DNA from: Methanobacteriota archaeon
GTDB lineage: Archaea > Thermoplasmatota > Poseidoniia > Poseidoniales > Poseidoniaceae
Direction: 5' to 3'
Assembly: GCA_002697705.1 (NCBI GenBank)
Contig: NZXL01000057.1
Span: 1 to 14,262 of the forward strand
Length of the DNA stretch: 14,262 nucleotides
The notes below the pieces were generated by a model, which did not search any database, was not told the origin of the DNA, and was given only the letters and a program-made list of their open reading frames with translations. Made by a program: the position numbers and the translations under genes. Positions 6,515-13,922 of this stretch are shown in pieces. The first letter of the stretch is position 1. Every line of letters starts with the position of its first letter.

Positions 6515-7708
6515 TTAAAATTTCATTCTCTCTATGATGTTCCAACCCATCACGGCAAAAATAACACTGAAAATTAAAATGAATGAGAAGTTTAAGAAAC
6601 CTCTTCCACTTTCTATAGAACCATGTGATGAATAGTCGAAAGTTAGTATTTTATACTCTCCATTTGAGTTCATTCCGTGCATATAAATCATCTTAGAAGA
6701 AGAACCATAACTTTCTATTTCAATAGGCATTTTATGTTGTAAATCTATTACCTCATATCCTTCATTAGTCCATTTGATTACGGAATCTGAGTTAATAGTT
6801 CCGAAGAACCAAACAACATCACATTCGCCCTTAATCGCAGCAGAACTTGTTATTGTTAAATGTTCAAAAGTTAAGTCATTAGAATCGAAAATAGTGGTCT
6901 GAGTAGTTCCCGCAATAATCATTTCATCACCCATTCTTATCATCGAATGAAACTCACCTGATGGAGCAATATACATCTTATCAAGCATCGGTGCAGTAAA
7001 TCCACCAGTCCATATAACATGCCCAACAACAGGCTTTATCTCTGGTGATGCAGGATTATTATCTTGACCGGAATTCGAAGAAATTTGAATTCCTGTCGCT
7101 ATCCATTCATCATCGCTTAAAGACTCTATTTTTTGCCATTCAACCTCTACATTGTTGGGCATTGAAGAACTAGGTACTCCATCAATTGATGCTCCTCTAA
7201 AACTGGTATGGTCACCTTCATCAGTAATTAGAAGCATAGAATTTTCTTGTTCATTAAAATTTTCAGATAAATCAATAATGTCGAAATTTCCTCTATCACT
7301 ATTCAAACTAATATTAGATGTTGTTGAACCATCAATAATTAAGATAGAGTTTTCCTCTGTTGAGGTAGCGACAGACCCATTATCTAATTCAGTAAGAAAT
7401 TGAATTCCTGATGCACTGGAGTCAGTATTAGGATTTATGATATCAGTCCTTTCACCATCAGCAAAATGATACAAGTAAGTGCCTTCACTGGTATAACTAA
7501 CCGAATAATAGTCCTCATAGTCTTGATAACTGATCTCTAATACACGAGAGTTTTCAAGAGCAGAATTATTTTTAATATCCATGCCAGTAAGTTTACTGGT
7601 GCCATGAATTGCAAAGGCTCCGATAATAATGAACACGAAGAACAGCGAAATTGCTAACCATTGATGCTCAGATTCTTCTTCAAGAAACCGCCTCCAGCCC
7701 TTCGCCAT
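6515..7708 (-). CDS. Two-helix membrane-anchored exported protein of unknown function
   Basis: I do not recognise a family. The 397-residue protein starts with a basic stretch (MAKGWRRF) and then a hydrophobic helix at about 17-34. It ends with a second hydrophobic helix at about 371-392 and a short basic tail (ERMKF). The positive residues at both ends predict both termini in the cytoplasm and about 335 residues outside. The outside part is rich in acidic residues, Ser, Thr and Asn and in alternating hydrophobic beta-like segments (for example SILIIDG, SMLLITDEG, EMIIAGTTQT, KMIYMHGM), which suggests an all-beta, possibly propeller-like, sensor or binding domain. There is no lipobox and no catalytic motif I can name. 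It is expressed in the same direction as mutSL, 52 bases upstream of it, and its start diverges from rpl10e. The coding call is firm because the frame is long and has this topology; function is open. Confidence 0.85.
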   Translation of the reverse strand: MAKGWRRFLEEESEHQWLAISLFFVFIIIGAFAIHGTSKLTGMDIKNNSALENSRVLEISYQDYEDYYSVSYTSEGTYLYHFADGERTDIINPNTDSSASGIQFLTELDNGSVATSTEENSILIIDGSTTSNISLNSDRGNFDIIDLSENFNEQENSMLLITDEGDHTSFRGASIDGVPSSSMPNNVEVEWQKIESLSDDEWIATGIQISSNSGQDNNPASPEIKPVVGHVIWTGGFTAPMLDKMYIAPSGEFHSMIRMGDEMIIAGTTQTTIFDSNDLTFEHLTITSSAAIKGECDVVWFFGTINSDSVIKWTNEGYEVIDLQHKMPIEIESYGSSSKMIYMHGMNSNGEYKILTFDYSSHGSIESGRGFLNFSFILIFSVIFAVMGWNIIERMKF

Positions 7709-8490: not shown

Positions 8491-10272
8491 TTGAGAGTTG
8501 CAGTTTTGAAGGAAGACAGTTGTCAACCAAAGAAGTGTAATGATGAATGCCAATCATTCTGTCCTCCTGTTAGAAATGGGCAAGAATGCATAATTATGGA
8601 TGAGAAAACAGGTAAACCACATATCTCCGAAAGTTTGTGTATAGGTTGTGGAATTTGTATAAATAAATGCCCGCATGATGCACTTATAATTGAACAATTA
8701 CCAAGTGAATTAGAAACCGATATGATACATAGATATTCTATGAATGGTTTTAGACTATTCCGTTTACCTACTCCTTCAAAGGAAAGTGTTGTCGGCATTC
8801 TTGGTCCAAATGGAATGGGTAAATCGACTGCAATAAATGCTCTTTCGGGGAGGATAGTTCCAAACCTTGGTGACTGGTTGAATAAAGAGCCAGATTGGCA
8901 AGATATCATCGAATCATTGCCAAGAGGTGAACTTAGAGATTTCCTAATTTCTGTTGATAAGGGTGAAGTAAAAATAGCCGTCAAACCTCAAAATGTCGAT
9001 AAACTTCCAAAGAGGATTAATGGAACAGTTCGTGAATTACTTTCTAAAGTTGATGAAAGAAATATATTTGATGAAGCCACCAAAGACCTCGGCATTGACC
9101 ACCTATTAGACAGAACTATTCAGCAATTATCTGGTGGTGAATTACAAAGAATGGCTATTTGTGCTACAATCCTTAGAGATGTCGATGTTTACTTTTTTGA
9201 TGAGCCGTCTTCTTATCTTGATATACATGAGAGAATGCGTATAGTGAATATAATTCAGAAGTTATCGGAAACCAAGAGAGTAATAGTCATTGAACACGAT
9301 TTAGCCGTACTTGACGTTCTTGCAGATCTAATTCACATCGTATACGGAAAGAAAGGAGCATTTGGAATTTTTACTCCTGCTCGTTCGACAAGGCAAGCGA
9401 TAAACACCTACCTTGATGGATTTTTACCGGAACAAAATGTGAGAATAAGAAATAAGCCGATTCAATTTTTGAATCATAAAGACCGAAGTTCAGAATTAGG
9501 TTCGGAAGTAGTTTCCTGGTCTGGTCTAAAAAAGAAGTTAGGTGACTTCGAACTTAGTACAGGCGATGGTGCAGTTCACAGAAGTGAAGTAGTCGGTGTA
9601 GTAGGTCCAAATGGAACTGGTAAATCTACGATGATTAAGATCTTAGCAGGAATACATGAATACGATGATGGTTGGGTAACTAAGGAATCGACAGTATCTT
9701 ACAAACCTCAACATATCGATGTTGATATGGATTGTAGTGTTCAATTATGGCTAGATAGTGAAATTGGTGCAAAGTGGCGTGGTGGAGAATTCAATGTCAA
9801 TGTAATCAAAGCATTAGGGGTTGACCAATTACTTGCAAAGAGGGTAAAGAAATTATCAGGTGGTGAAAGACAAGCAGTTTCTATTGCTATATGTCTTGGT
9901 CGAGATGCTGACCTATATTTGCTGGATGAACCGTCTGCACACTTGGACGCTAATGCTAGAATGGAAGCAGCCAAGGCGATTAGACGAACCATGGAATCAA
10001 ATGAGAAATCAGCTTTTGTAATTGACCATGATGTATATTTCATAGATATCCTCAGCGACTCTCTATTGGTATTTGATGGTCAAGGAGGTTCTTTTGGTAA
10101 AGCAGAAGGGCCATTTACTCTTAGAGAAGGCATGAATCGCTTCCTGAAGGATGTTAATATCACTTTTAGAAGAGATCATGATTCAAAGCGCCCTAGAATA
10201 AATAAAAATCAAAGCAGAAAAGATAGGGAACAACAAAGTTCTGGAGACTACTATTCTTTTGATGCCAGTTAG
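8491..10272 (+). CDS. abce1: Ribosome recycling ATPase ABCE1 (RNase L inhibitor, Rli1)
   Basis: Soluble twin-ATPase that splits 70S ribosomes after termination or rescue, working with release factor aRF1 or Pelota. The 593 residues hold the complete family layout. The N-terminal ferredoxin-like domain has two [4Fe-4S] cysteine sets (C11, C16, C20, C24 and C50, C53, C56, C60, the second in CIGCGICINKCP). The first nucleotide-binding domain has Walker A GPNGMGKST (105-113), LSGGE (213-217), Walker B VYFFDEP (233-239) and switch H269. The second has GPNGTGKST (372-380), LSGGE (455-459), Walker B LYLLDEP (475-481) and H513. The C-terminal tail (RRD...RPRINK...SSGDYY) is typical. Translation starts at TTG. 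It is followed eight bases later by an Fe-S nuclease gene whose ribosome-binding site overlaps this stop codon. Confidence 0.97.
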   Translation: MRVAVLKEDSCQPKKCNDECQSFCPPVRNGQECIIMDEKTGKPHISESLCIGCGICINKCPHDALIIEQLPSELETDMIHRYSMNGFRLFRLPTPSKESVVGILGPNGMGKSTAINALSGRIVPNLGDWLNKEPDWQDIIESLPRGELRDFLISVDKGEVKIAVKPQNVDKLPKRINGTVRELLSKVDERNIFDEATKDLGIDHLLDRTIQQLSGGELQRMAICATILRDVDVYFFDEPSSYLDIHERMRIVNIIQKLSETKRVIVIEHDLAVLDVLADLIHIVYGKKGAFGIFTPARSTRQAINTYLDGFLPEQNVRIRNKPIQFLNHKDRSSELGSEVVSWSGLKKKLGDFELSTGDGAVHRSEVVGVVGPNGTGKSTMIKILAGIHEYDDGWVTKESTVSYKPQHIDVDMDCSVQLWLDSEIGAKWRGGEFNVNVIKALGVDQLLAKRVKKLSGGERQAVSIAICLGRDADLYLLDEPSAHLDANARMEAAKAIRRTMESNEKSAFVIDHDVYFIDILSDSLLVFDGQGGSFGKAEGPFTLREGMNRFLKDVNITFRRDHDSKRPRINKNQSRKDREQQSSGDYYSFDAS

Positions 10273-10280: not shown

Positions 10281-12038
10281 ATGCCATTTGGAAAACCACC
10301 TTTAGGCGGCCCTTTGGGCAAATCACGCTCTCGAATTTCAGCCAGTGGATTAACAACTTTCCTTAGATGTAAAACACAATGGTTTCTAAGTTCTAAATTA
10401 GGGCTATCTGGTCCTTTGAATACTTCACAAGTACTCGGTATAGTAATTGAGGACTGTTTTTGTGAGATATTAATGAAAAGACCAAAATCAATAAATTCAT
10501 TTGAAGAATTGAAATTATGGGCTAATAGTTTTGTTGAAGAATATTCAATTAAGGCCATGGATAGAGGCGAAGAACTCTGGTTACAAGGTATTTGGCATAA
10601 GGAAGGTGCTTCTTGGGATGATGTAGAATTAGAATCAATAAAATATCGAATTTCATGCGGATTAGAATTATTCCTAGAAGAGGTCGAAAACTGCTATAAT
10701 GCAGGAGGAGGACCTTACTTGGAAAGTTTCAGGAAAGGAGATTTTGTTTTTGAAATTAATTCACCTGCTTGGGGGGAAGAGCCAATATTTCCAATACCTG
10801 ATAAAGTAAACAATTTTGCTATTAGAAAATGGTCTATAGAAGAAAATATTGAGTGGCAGGAAGAAAATAGCCCCGTCAGTTGGTGCGAGGCTTGGGAAAT
10901 CGCTAGGCCTTGGGTCAAAGACCCTAGAGTTCACCAACCTCAACGATTATTCCATCCTGAAGGGTGGGCTGCTGGCGAATTAGACCTTGTACTAAGGTGG
11001 GATGGAAGAATAAGAATCATCGATATAAAATCAGGTAATCCGGAATCTAAATTTGCAGTATCGTTGATTCATCAACTAAGATTTTATTCTTGGTTATGGA
11101 GAGAAACACATGATGGAGAAGTTATTGATGGAATGGAAGGCTGGTATCTTGATGGGGCTCACAGAGTTACTTATGATGCTCCTACTTTGGAAGAATATGA
11201 CTCGATGAGTACTGAATTTAAACAGGTTCATTCAGAGATGCAATCGATGGGTGAAGGCCCTGCAGTATTTCCTAATGCCCAACAAAGTGAATGCAAAGGA
11301 GAGCAAGCAGGTTGCCACTGGTGTGGGGTTTCAAGAGATGATTCAGGGGTCTGGACTAATTCTGATATAGTTGAGTCAATAACAAAAAAGTTGGAAATAG
11401 AAATTAAACCTCCATTCGAAATGTTAAGTGAAATTCCTTCAAGAGTAACTGTAAAAGGAAAGTTTACAGGTTCTTGGGGGCCGTTACCCAATCACTTTTC
11501 TGAACCAGTATTAGGTGCAATGCTGTCTTCAGGTCAAAAGCAAATCACAATTGAAGAAAGCGAACCAGGTTCTTTTCCAACATTGCATGACTGTCCAAAT
11601 GAAGAGGTTGTGATAATAGATGCATTACCAGGGGTTTGGAGAGGAAATTCTAGACTATATGTTGATTCTAAGACTAAAATCTTAACACTGGAGGAATCAG
11701 AGGAATATTTCAGTTCAATAGGCAAAGAAGCCTCTAATGCGATTACTAGAGTAGGACTTCTAAGAACCAGAGCAAATGCTGAAGGATTTGTACTAAGCAT
11801 CAGAAAAAGAAATGGAATTAGATTAGATGGTAAACCTTGGACAATGCTCAATATGTATATCTGGGATGGACATAATGTAGTTGAAGTAGTTGCTTTTGGA
11901 TCGAGTATTAATTCCCAAATGGAATCGATCACTAAGGGTCAGAAAGTTGGCCTAATTGGTGCAGAAATAGGATGGCGAGCTGGCTTACCACAACTTAGAA
12001 TAGATTCTAGAAATACTAGAATTACAGTGAAAAATTAA
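10281..12038 (+). CDS. Fe-S PD-(D/E)XK nuclease (Cas4/RecB-like) with C-terminal OB folds, paralog 1
   Basis: Predicted nuclease of 585 residues. The N-terminal half is a RecB/Cas4-type PD-(D/E)XK domain: SASGLTTFLRC (20-30, C30 as first Fe-S ligand), GIVIED (53-58), GELDLV (232-237, catalytic D235), RIIDIKSG (245-252, D248 and K250) and HQLRFY (264-269, the QxxxY motif). Three later cysteines, C338, C345 and C348, would complete a four-Cys cluster, though their CX6CX2C spacing differs from the Cas4 CX2CX5C. After about 385 come two probable OB folds (about 385-475 and 490-583). The second resembles RPA: an EGFVLSIRKRNG strand, then DGKPWTMLNMYIWDG, then VVEVVAFG. Nucleic-acid end processing is the inferred role; substrate and polarity are unknown. 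It is co-transcribed with abce1 and followed by a paralog. Cas4 proteins are about 200 residues and lack OB folds, so I do not call it Cas4. Confidence 0.85.
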   Translation: MPFGKPPLGGPLGKSRSRISASGLTTFLRCKTQWFLSSKLGLSGPLNTSQVLGIVIEDCFCEILMKRPKSINSFEELKLWANSFVEEYSIKAMDRGEELWLQGIWHKEGASWDDVELESIKYRISCGLELFLEEVENCYNAGGGPYLESFRKGDFVFEINSPAWGEEPIFPIPDKVNNFAIRKWSIEENIEWQEENSPVSWCEAWEIARPWVKDPRVHQPQRLFHPEGWAAGELDLVLRWDGRIRIIDIKSGNPESKFAVSLIHQLRFYSWLWRETHDGEVIDGMEGWYLDGAHRVTYDAPTLEEYDSMSTEFKQVHSEMQSMGEGPAVFPNAQQSECKGEQAGCHWCGVSRDDSGVWTNSDIVESITKKLEIEIKPPFEMLSEIPSRVTVKGKFTGSWGPLPNHFSEPVLGAMLSSGQKQITIEESEPGSFPTLHDCPNEEVVIIDALPGVWRGNSRLYVDSKTKILTLEESEEYFSSIGKEASNAITRVGLLRTRANAEGFVLSIRKRNGIRLDGKPWTMLNMYIWDGHNVVEVVAFGSSINSQMESITKGQKVGLIGAEIGWRAGLPQLRIDSRNTRITVKN

Positions 12039-12086
12039 TTTCATAAATCATAGGTTTCAATAGGGTAGGCCAATAGCACTCCTAGT
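12039..12086 (+). promoter_or_regulatory. Spacer between the two nuclease genes, possible internal promoter
   Basis: This 48-base gap has no convincing Shine-Dalgarno before the ATG at 12087, unlike the site before the first nuclease. AT-rich TTTCATAAATCATA (12039-12052) is about 35-48 bases upstream and could act as a TATA box giving a short leader. The second nuclease may thus have its own promoter as well as read-through from abce1. Confidence 0.25.
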
Positions 12087-13922
12087 ATGCCAGCGACAAT
12101 TGTAGACCAGGATAACGATGTTGTTGGACCATATAATAGATTATCTGCAAGCCAAGTTAATAGTTATCAATCATGCCCAAGATTATGGTTTTATGAAAAG
12201 AACTTACATTTCAAGTTTCCACAAGTGCCGGTTCTTTTCGTTGGTCGGGCTGTTGAAGATGCATTCTGTAGGATGTTGAGAGAGTCTCCAGCATTGATAT
12301 CTAGCAATGCTTCCAATGATACTCTTTCGAAAATACCACTAGATGACAGTGGTCAACCAGATAGAGACCCAGACAAGATTTGGCCTTCTCAAAGAATACT
12401 TCCTTTACCTGAAAAATTATTTCCTAAATCAATCAGTGAAATTAGAGACTGGGCAATCGCAAGAATAGATGTTCACTTACCCGTTTCTTTAGAGGAAATG
12501 AGAAAGGAATGGCTCAAAGATGAAAGAAAATCCGGAGATTGGGATGACGTAGATCCAAATTATTGCCGTCAAATGTGTATCAATGGTATCGATATGCATT
12601 TACTTGAAGTGGAAAAATGCTTTGAGGAAATCGACGAAAAATCATTACAACTTTGGAGGGGTGGTAGCAGAACTAAATGGCCCGCTCCTGATGGCTTTGG
12701 CTTTTCTTTTTCAGGCCCACACCCACTGTCTAGTAGTTCGGAAATAAAATTAATAGAAGCATGGGAGATTAGTCGTCCCTGGTTTGTCGACCCGGATGCA
12801 GCAAATTTCAGTTTAAACTCGATCCATCCTGATTTTTGGTTCCAAGGAGAGTATGACTTGGTTTACCGATGGAATGGTAAAATCAAAATCGTTGACCTCA
12901 AAGCCAGTTTAGGTAAAGGTGATCGTTCAGGAGACTATGTCAAACAATTACGAATGTATGCAATGCTGTGGTGGGTCACCCACGGTAAAGAAGAAATGGT
13001 TGATGAACTCGAAGTTTGGTATCTTGGTGCTAATAAAGTAAAAATCATCGAAAACCCAACTCAAGATGAATTAGAATCTATGGAAAAAGAACTTAATTCA
13101 CTGTGGAATGAACTAAAGTCGGTGGCAATTTCTATAGAGAACTTTCCACCAACTCCAAGTCCTGTTAGAGGTTTTCTCGAGGGAGGGGTAAAGACAGAGC
13201 CACCCAATGAGAAAAGATGCGAGAGATGTGATTGGAATACAATATGCCCTGGGGGTTCAGGAAATGATGAATTCCCTGATGATAAATCATTCAATATACC
13301 AGGAAATATAACTCCAATAGAAGTGACTAGGGTTGAAGATTTGAATCCGAGATTGACAATTGTATGCGATGTTTTTTCTGTTTTTGATTCTAAAAATAAG
13401 AGGCCAAGTATTACCGTCAGTCAAGGTAAGAGTATGGCTAAAATCGACATATTAGTGGACAAGCATCAAGATGGGCGAATGCCATGGCCAGAACAAATCT
13501 CCAAGGGGGATAGAATACTGGTGGAGGATGCTGTTGTGACAGTAAATTGGAAAGGTGAATTAGTTTTGAAAATCGACCCACTAGGATTTATTTCCAAAAC
13601 TGATAAAGAAATTATTGTTCATTCTGACCTTATGGAATTTAGGGCGAGATGGAATATTGTTGGAAAATTGATCTATAAATTTGATAAAAGAGGAGTAGGG
13701 CGAAATGGCAAACAATGGCATAGGAAGGGCATTATGATAATGGACCCTTCCGGTTCGATGAAGATTTCAGGATGGGCAAATGACTGGGGTACACAGTATA
13801 GTATGTCTGAAGTTGGGGATTTGGTATTGATTGCCAATACTGGAATTGATGCATGGGCTACACAGGTCAGAGGAGATATTTCTCGTAATTCGAAACTTCA
13901 AATTATTTCATCCACCAGATGA
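12087..13922 (+). CDS. Fe-S PD-(D/E)XK nuclease (Cas4/RecB-like) with C-terminal OB folds, paralog 2
   Basis: 611-residue paralog of the preceding protein. The core motifs align closely, with C30 and E57 at the same residue numbers in both: SASQVNSYQSCPRLWF (20-35, C30), GRAVED (53-58), GEYDLV (254-259, D257), KIVDLKAS (267-274, D270 and K272) and KQLRMY (286-291). Its C-terminal cysteines C378, C381 and C387 have the canonical Cas4 CX2CX5C spacing. Shared blocks such as EAWEI(A/S)RPW and RW(D/N)G(R/K)I(R/K)I(I/V)D(I/L)K confirm duplication. Two probable OB folds follow (about 410-498 and 517-608); the second has NGKQWHRKGIMIMDPSG, an RPA-like strand-turn-strand. Inserts at about 70-115 and 190-220 distinguish it from paralog 1. 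It probably forms a complex with paralog 1 or has a divided role; this is inference. Its last 15 bases overlap the convergent ubiquitin-like gene. Confidence 0.85.
   Translation: MPATIVDQDNDVVGPYNRLSASQVNSYQSCPRLWFYEKNLHFKFPQVPVLFVGRAVEDAFCRMLRESPALISSNASNDTLSKIPLDDSGQPDRDPDKIWPSQRILPLPEKLFPKSISEIRDWAIARIDVHLPVSLEEMRKEWLKDERKSGDWDDVDPNYCRQMCINGIDMHLLEVEKCFEEIDEKSLQLWRGGSRTKWPAPDGFGFSFSGPHPLSSSSEIKLIEAWEISRPWFVDPDAANFSLNSIHPDFWFQGEYDLVYRWNGKIKIVDLKASLGKGDRSGDYVKQLRMYAMLWWVTHGKEEMVDELEVWYLGANKVKIIENPTQDELESMEKELNSLWNELKSVAISIENFPPTPSPVRGFLEGGVKTEPPNEKRCERCDWNTICPGGSGNDEFPDDKSFNIPGNITPIEVTRVEDLNPRLTIVCDVFSVFDSKNKRPSITVSQGKSMAKIDILVDKHQDGRMPWPEQISKGDRILVEDAVVTVNWKGELVLKIDPLGFISKTDKEIIVHSDLMEFRARWNIVGKLIYKFDKRGVGRNGKQWHRKGIMIMDPSGSMKISGWANDWGTQYSMSEVGDLVLIANTGIDAWATQVRGDISRNSKLQIISSTR

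Follow-up and report, generated by a model that had tools for sequence, protein, structure and literature searches.

What does a nuclease with its own RPA-type module do in the archaeal order Poseidoniales? The question is raised by two adjacent genes, here called nucA and nucB, in a stretch of 14,262 nucleotides (the window; contig NZXL01000057.1 of assembly GCA_002697705.1) from a 1.6 Mb genome that is 74% complete. Both genes lie on the + strand, 48 nt apart in the list of open reading frames. We estimate at about one in two the probability that NucA and NucB are housekeeping single-stranded DNA (ssDNA) nucleases, each with its own RPA-type module, acting in replication or repair in Poseidoniales (Marine Group II). 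A first-pass annotation of the window had described adjacent genes of 585 and 611 residues, and both were found exactly where it had placed them. The two genes and their domains are as follows.

10281..12038, + strand: nucA, 585 aa, iron-sulfur (Fe-S)-type PD-(D/E)XK nuclease carrying a C-terminal pair of OB folds
10323..11330, + strand: NucA nuclease domain, residues ~15-350, from the structure match to AdnA/Dna2/AddB/Cas4 and residue counts
11406..12035, + strand: NucA tandem OB folds, residues ~376-585, split near 486, from model secondary structure and from structure and profile matches
12087..13922, + strand: nucB, 611 aa, nucA paralogue with the same architecture
12135..13271, + strand: NucB nuclease domain, residues ~17-395, from the Pfam match and residue counts
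13314..13907, + strand: predicted NucB tandem OB folds, residues ~410-607, the second RPA-like, from PDB profile matches and hhalign

NucA and NucB scored 57.5 and 57.3 bits against the Pfam family PF12705 (cut-off 22; E about 1e-15). All 27 NucA and 33 NucB members of our alignments matched this family at E 0.01 or better. The two proteins align over nearly their full length with 23% identity (E 2e-33), showing that they are distant paralogues. The NucA model (pLDDT 89) retrieved the AdnA/Dna2/AddB/Cas4 nucleases, followed by RPA and other OB folds. Key residues are Glu57, Asp235, Asp248, Lys250, Gln265/Tyr269 and Cys30, 338, 345 and 348 in NucA, and Glu57, Asp257, Asp270, Lys272, Gln287/Tyr291 and Cys30, 378, 381 and 387 in NucB. 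Their conservation was counted in deduplicated sequences longer than 530 aa (560 aa for NucB taken from loci), that is, in 159 NucA and 162 NucB distinct full-length sequences. No exception occurred to the Asp, Asp-x-Lys and Gln-x3-Tyr motifs; the PD-(D/E)XK cores proposed at first pass (D235/D248/K250 and D257/D270/K272) are invariant. The same annotation had pointed to Cys30 and three C-terminal cysteines. This iron-staple pattern is kept across nearly all sequences counted, with Cys30 in 158/159 NucA and 160/162 NucB and the final three cysteines in 155-158 of the 159 NucA and in every NucB. The C-terminal motif reads C-x6-C-x2-C in the NucA of the window (338, 345, 348) and C-x2-C-x5-C in NucB and in NucA of the second Poseidoniales family. 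A nuclease fold, a complete Asp/Asp/Lys site and the cysteine set are thereby established, by sequence or by model, and an Fe-S cluster is predicted for both proteins. A fifth cysteine, in a helical insert (NucA 138, 10692-10694; NucB 178, 12618-12620), is also invariant (159/159 and 162/162).

A motif-I histidine is a criterion for RecB/Cas4-type PD-(D/E)XK nucleases. Where RecB-type nucleases carry this His, NucA and NucB have Glu57, in 159/159 and 161/162 sequences respectively, the remaining row being a gap. The equivalent residue in a solo Cas4-like nuclease of Poseidoniales is the His of GTAVH, as placed by a profile alignment (21 solo sequences, 30 loci) with a probability of 97% for NucA and 52% for NucB. 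Both Poseidoniales families have this third nuclease (L205:181-1362; L176-L200), which is mostly ~385-480 aa long and has a Cys motif in its C-terminal part. PDDEXK_1 proteins of ~405-420 aa, putatively its kin, were seen in the sister family.

The C-terminal part was read at first pass as two OB folds, the last RPA-like, and this reading held, by sequence for NucB and by model for NucA. Profiles of the C-terminal half of NucB matched PDB entries 8aa9, 8aaj and 1o7i and archaeal RPA. In the NucA model, the predicted OB folds gave structural matches of ~100 residues each, with RPA first. Both NucA halves matched those of NucB in profile comparisons (hhalign, local mode, with controls); among the controls, aIF2alpha contains an S1 domain, which we take to be an OB-type fold itself. 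Tandem OB folds of RPA type are in this way evident in both proteins. Their likeness is to archaeal RPA (Rpa1, OB-1), except that NucA and NucB have a nuclease where archaeal RPA has its other parts. Separate RPA-like proteins of 562-591 aa, scoring below the RPA model cut-off, are encoded in the six Poseidoniales genomes read.

Among known enzymes, EXO5 (DEM1) is likewise an Fe-S PD-(D/E)XK nuclease without a helicase. According to an excerpt of its description, it is an ssDNA enzyme partnered with RPA that resects open-ended ssDNA only, in a direction enforced by RPA (PMC8710748). Set beside NucA and NucB by description, EXO5 is a single nuclease domain, whereas in the latter the nuclease is followed by two OB folds and the gene is duplicated in tandem. 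EXO5 was not among the best 50 structural matches listed for the NucA model, which says nothing against kinship. By analogy, EXO5 is the best functional analogue of the pair. Dna2 differs by its SF1 helicase domain, and AdnA/AdnB and AddB by a helicase or helicase-like part. None of the 60 aligned proteins, which include the NucA and NucB of the window, matched a helicase, and the NucA model consists of nuclease and OB parts alone. The Cas4 model (TIGR00372) gave 12.1 bits for NucA and 21.3 for NucB as compared to a cut-off of 65, the OB folds are extra to it, and no cas gene was present among the neighbours scanned; the Argonaute-associated Cas4 (ACE1) was among the best folds for the NucA model. 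NCBIfam matches were in general far below cut-off, so that no curated family claims either protein, in line with the first-pass view that the family is not an already characterised one. No description of the pair was found among the best-ranked titles and abstract openings of the open-licence literature on Marine Group II/Poseidoniales nucleases, Cas4/Fe-S/OB-fold proteins, Mre11/HerA/NurA, AddAB or ABCE1. The main text of PMC6461757 has no occurrence of nuclease, DNA repair, CRISPR, RecB, Mre11 or mutS. Overall, the nuclease fold and the OB fold are known ones, and what appears new relative to that literature is the architecture, its duplication and its lineage.

How widely is this architecture found? 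The NucB query matched 46 of 48 Poseidoniales genomes and 1 of 146 other genomes of the phylum, the latter by the nuclease stretch alone. When the NucB profile was run on 145 genomes of the phylum, the matches listed outside the order covered query residues 405-608 only. With the NucA query, a family member was found in 109/115 Poseidoniales genomes. As read from the E-values of this query, nucA is present in 56/57 genomes of the first family. The second family (n=58) divides into 12 genomes with nucA (E 1e-51 or better), 41 with a nucB-like gene only (E 7.5e-42 to 2e-23) and 5 without a match; absence of nucA was confirmed in the seven nucB-only loci inspected. Genomes lacking any match are 78-88% complete. 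Protein searches covered the best 120 of 396 and the best 120 of 511 matches. In a scan of genome contigs, the best 80 of 265 relatives were all Poseidoniales, Poseidoniaceae, Poseidonia, Euryarchaeota or euryarchaeote by title. Within the phylum sampled, the nuclease-OB fusion looks specific to Poseidoniales. In one locus (G061:C26:43551-45302) nucB is broken over frames by an internal stop, through assembly error or decay.

A tree of 60 sequences, from a short search without bootstrap, was rooted at its midpoint and had a fully supported branch between NucA and NucB. Since both families occur on both sides of it, and since all eight nucB-only rows group in a single clade inside the NucB side (SH-aLRT 99), the duplication probably predates the split of the two families, and nucA was, most simply, lost once. 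Two placements are untidy: the NucB of L079, a first-family sequence, sits with rows of the second family (88), and those second-family NucB sequences that have NucA as neighbour make up more than one clade. Between the gene trees of NucA and NucB, 30/37 splits are shared; with the concatenate, which includes both genes, NucA shares 31/37 and NucB 28/37. Judged from these splits, both genes show vertical inheritance.

The following gene lies directly upstream of the pair.

8491..10272, + strand: ABCE1 (RLI) gene, identified by Pfam, upstream member of an ABCE1-nucA-nucB string; association only

Across 100 loci, ABCE1 and nucA are on the same strand in 85/85 loci holding both (median gap 33 nt), and nucA and nucB in 91/91 (median gap 43 nt). 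Start sites were estimated by homology, so misplaced starts may account for the outlying gaps, the largest of 910 nt. The whole string is found in one family and in four genera of the other. Nine loci lack nucA: seven are second-family nucB-only loci, in which ABCE1 does not adjoin nucB, and two start inside nucB. Taking trees and synteny together, the tandem is ancient, widespread and not obligatory. It is not unique to the source genome, as the first-pass annotation had allowed it might be. Its suggested survey of whether the pair always co-occurs gave a divided answer: the tandem is widespread in the order, but a nucB-only clade exists. The idea of an obligate two-subunit system is not supported in the second family, where by E-value 41 of the 53 genomes with a match have a nucB-like gene alone; the seven inspected loci of this kind are in one clade.

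Elsewhere in the window and around it, uL16/L10e (Pfam) accompanies ABCE1 upstream of nucA on the + strand. mutS and mutL, the latter named from sequence, are on the opposite strand, ~4 to 8.5 kb upstream of nucA. A tRNA-Ser gene is downstream of nucB; past it, beyond the window, PAC2, aIF2alpha and L44E are on the opposite strand. A 397-aa protein encoded at 6515-7708 had no Pfam family over cut-off and, by eye, has a hydrophobic stretch near both ends; its relatives in six loci are merely 23-34% identical. In the source genome, two near-equal MutS1 matches and two near-equal solo-nuclease matches are on separate contigs (C27, C3; C53, C76), perhaps two strains binned together.

Because a DNA-end-type Fe-S nuclease and an RPA-type module are on one chain, and by analogy with EXO5, we propose an enzyme of ssDNA, flaps or overhangs. 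A free single-stranded end or flap would be threaded past the Fe-S-stapled PD-(D/E)XK site, as in EXO5 and the Dna2 nuclease, while the strand would be held by the enzyme's own pair of RPA-type OB folds rather than by free RPA alone. Such an activity could trim flaps, overhangs or stalled-fork strands during replication and repair; the ssDNA substrate, the exonuclease mode and the replication or repair role are those that domain content and analogy suggest. NucA and NucB would probably act as one complex wherever both are present, as their retention in tandem suggests. In the clade without nucA, NucB would act alone or as a homo-oligomer.

Two observations bear on the heteromeric part of this proposal. 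The nucB-only clade shows that NucB is able to do without NucA. The rate covariation of nucA and nucB is not separated from that of other pairs: in 46 loci (40 after dereplication), all of the first family, it ranked second of 28 gene pairs (r 0.593), after nucB-MutS (0.634). A bolder version is a self-contained heteromeric nuclease-RPA machine, in which two non-equivalent Fe-S subunits with four OB folds, needing no helicase, would each engage and cleave a different strand or polarity of ssDNA. It would serve fork processing, with a single origin in Poseidoniales and a one-subunit form in the smaller-genome branch. We regard this version as possible, though doubtful.

Could the pair instead be a double-strand-break end-resection nuclease replacing Mre11-Rad50-HerA-NurA in Poseidoniales? 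NurA and Mre11 were indeed not found in the order: their models (NurA and SbcD/Mre11) matched none of 77 Poseidoniales genomes but 7/14 and 13/14 controls, respectively, and the Rad50 hook was over cut-off in none of 98 genomes of the class, a weak test that matched only 3/14 controls. The case is less firm for HerA: DUF87 was over cut-off in 41/98 class genomes, and the two strongest matches, HerA-sized frames of 514 aa, are confined to the sister family. The remaining 39 genomes, mostly of the first family, count against the idea as far as they hold DUF87 proteins; their matches are weaker and mostly in frames of ~800 aa, which from score and size are presumably other ATPases and not HerA. 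Most of the listed genomes of the first family encode this ~800-aa protein, as against few second-family ones. The sister family f3 itself is mostly without NurA (1/21 genomes), and none of five f3 genomes matched NucB. There the SbcD/Mre11 model was positive in 15 genomes: 3/21 look like Mre11 (E 1.7e-15 or better), and the other 12/15 matches are weak (E 1.3e-5 to 1.4e-4, frames of ~480-530 aa) and may represent a different phosphoesterase, for example the small subunit of PolD. A further objection comes from the source genome (G000), in which a 1657-aa UvrD-helicase/PDDEXK protein (AddA model E 4.4e-47) adjoins a 1257-aa AddB-like protein (E 1.8e-8).

L202:4053-12796 (G000:C12): AddA/AddB-like pair; large PDDEXK frames also at L201 (G061:C21)

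PDDEXK frames of 1203-1652 aa are present in at least 11 genomes of both families, their AddA/AddB identity having been checked in the source genome. Perhaps a bacterial-type resection machine has here replaced the archaeal one. With such a machine at hand, nucA-nucB is not an obvious resection enzyme; end resection, which the first-pass annotation had listed among other roles, was dropped as first choice once this better candidate was found, and we hold it to be unlikely. An Okazaki-flap role, also raised at first pass, meets FEN1, which is present in 33/39 Poseidoniales and 47/60 class genomes; replacement of FEN1 by nucA or nucB was rejected on this ground.

The nearby mutS and mutL raise the possibility that the pair provides the excision exonuclease of a bacterial-type MutS-MutL mismatch repair. 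A MutS match was found in 70/100 loci, MutS1 was over cut-off in 12/12 second-family genomes with nucA, and of the 28 pairs nucB-MutS covaries most strongly in rate. MutS nevertheless also covaries with the unrelated PAC2 (0.52) and orf265 (0.47), and mutS does not adjoin nucAB in the second-family loci inspected. In that family, nucB is kept in g8, g10, g12, g14 and g114, no listed genome of which has MutS1 over cut-off; this part of the family has apparently lost mismatch repair. MutS1 is present in g11, g13, g15, g16, g115 and the majority of g9 genomes; in g16 and most of g9 it occurs without nucA. As the MutS1 pattern strictly follows neither nucA nor nucB, mismatch-repair excision was rejected and seems to us improbable.

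A joint role with ABCE1 in translation or ribosome turnover, with RNA as the substrate, would suit the co-directional string with its short gaps and the proximity of PAC2, aIF2alpha and L44E. The last two belong to the LSIN cluster, nearly systematic in archaea according to the part of the source cited here (PMC2643942). Against this, the nuclease part is closest in structure to DNA nucleases, ABCE1 rates are uncorrelated with those of nucA (r 0.10) and nucB (r 0.02), and ABCE1 is away from nucB in the seven nucB-only loci. We give this reading little credence.

Finally, a defence or CRISPR-type nuclease is very improbable: weak PADLOC matches to Cas4 (5e-7, NucB), DruK (1.3e-6, NucA) and an Argonaute-associated Cas4-like nuclease (1.9e-4, NucB), a weak NucB match (3.1e-5) to a PHROG annotated as CRISPR/Cas system associated (the other PHROGs matches, all weak, are exonuclease families and two unknown) and the ACE1 fold speak for it, but the family is nearly order-wide, vertical and syntenic, the Cas4 score is far below cut-off, and a mobile or defence gene was rejected as no relative was found in phage and plasmid records (NucB query only) or in viral contigs (NucA and NucB alignments).

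Overall, the observation made at first pass is confirmed and its interpretation partly supported, and we favour housekeeping ssDNA nucleases of replication or repair. Marine Group II are the most abundant planktonic archaea of the ocean surface and have no cultured representatives, according to the portion of the study cited (PMC6461757). In the present searches they lack two members of the end-processing set usual in archaea, NurA and Mre11. An order-wide nuclease with its own RPA-type module would fuse in these archaea two activities that are usually on separate proteins, and the nucB-only clade would serve as a natural test of the second subunit's contribution.

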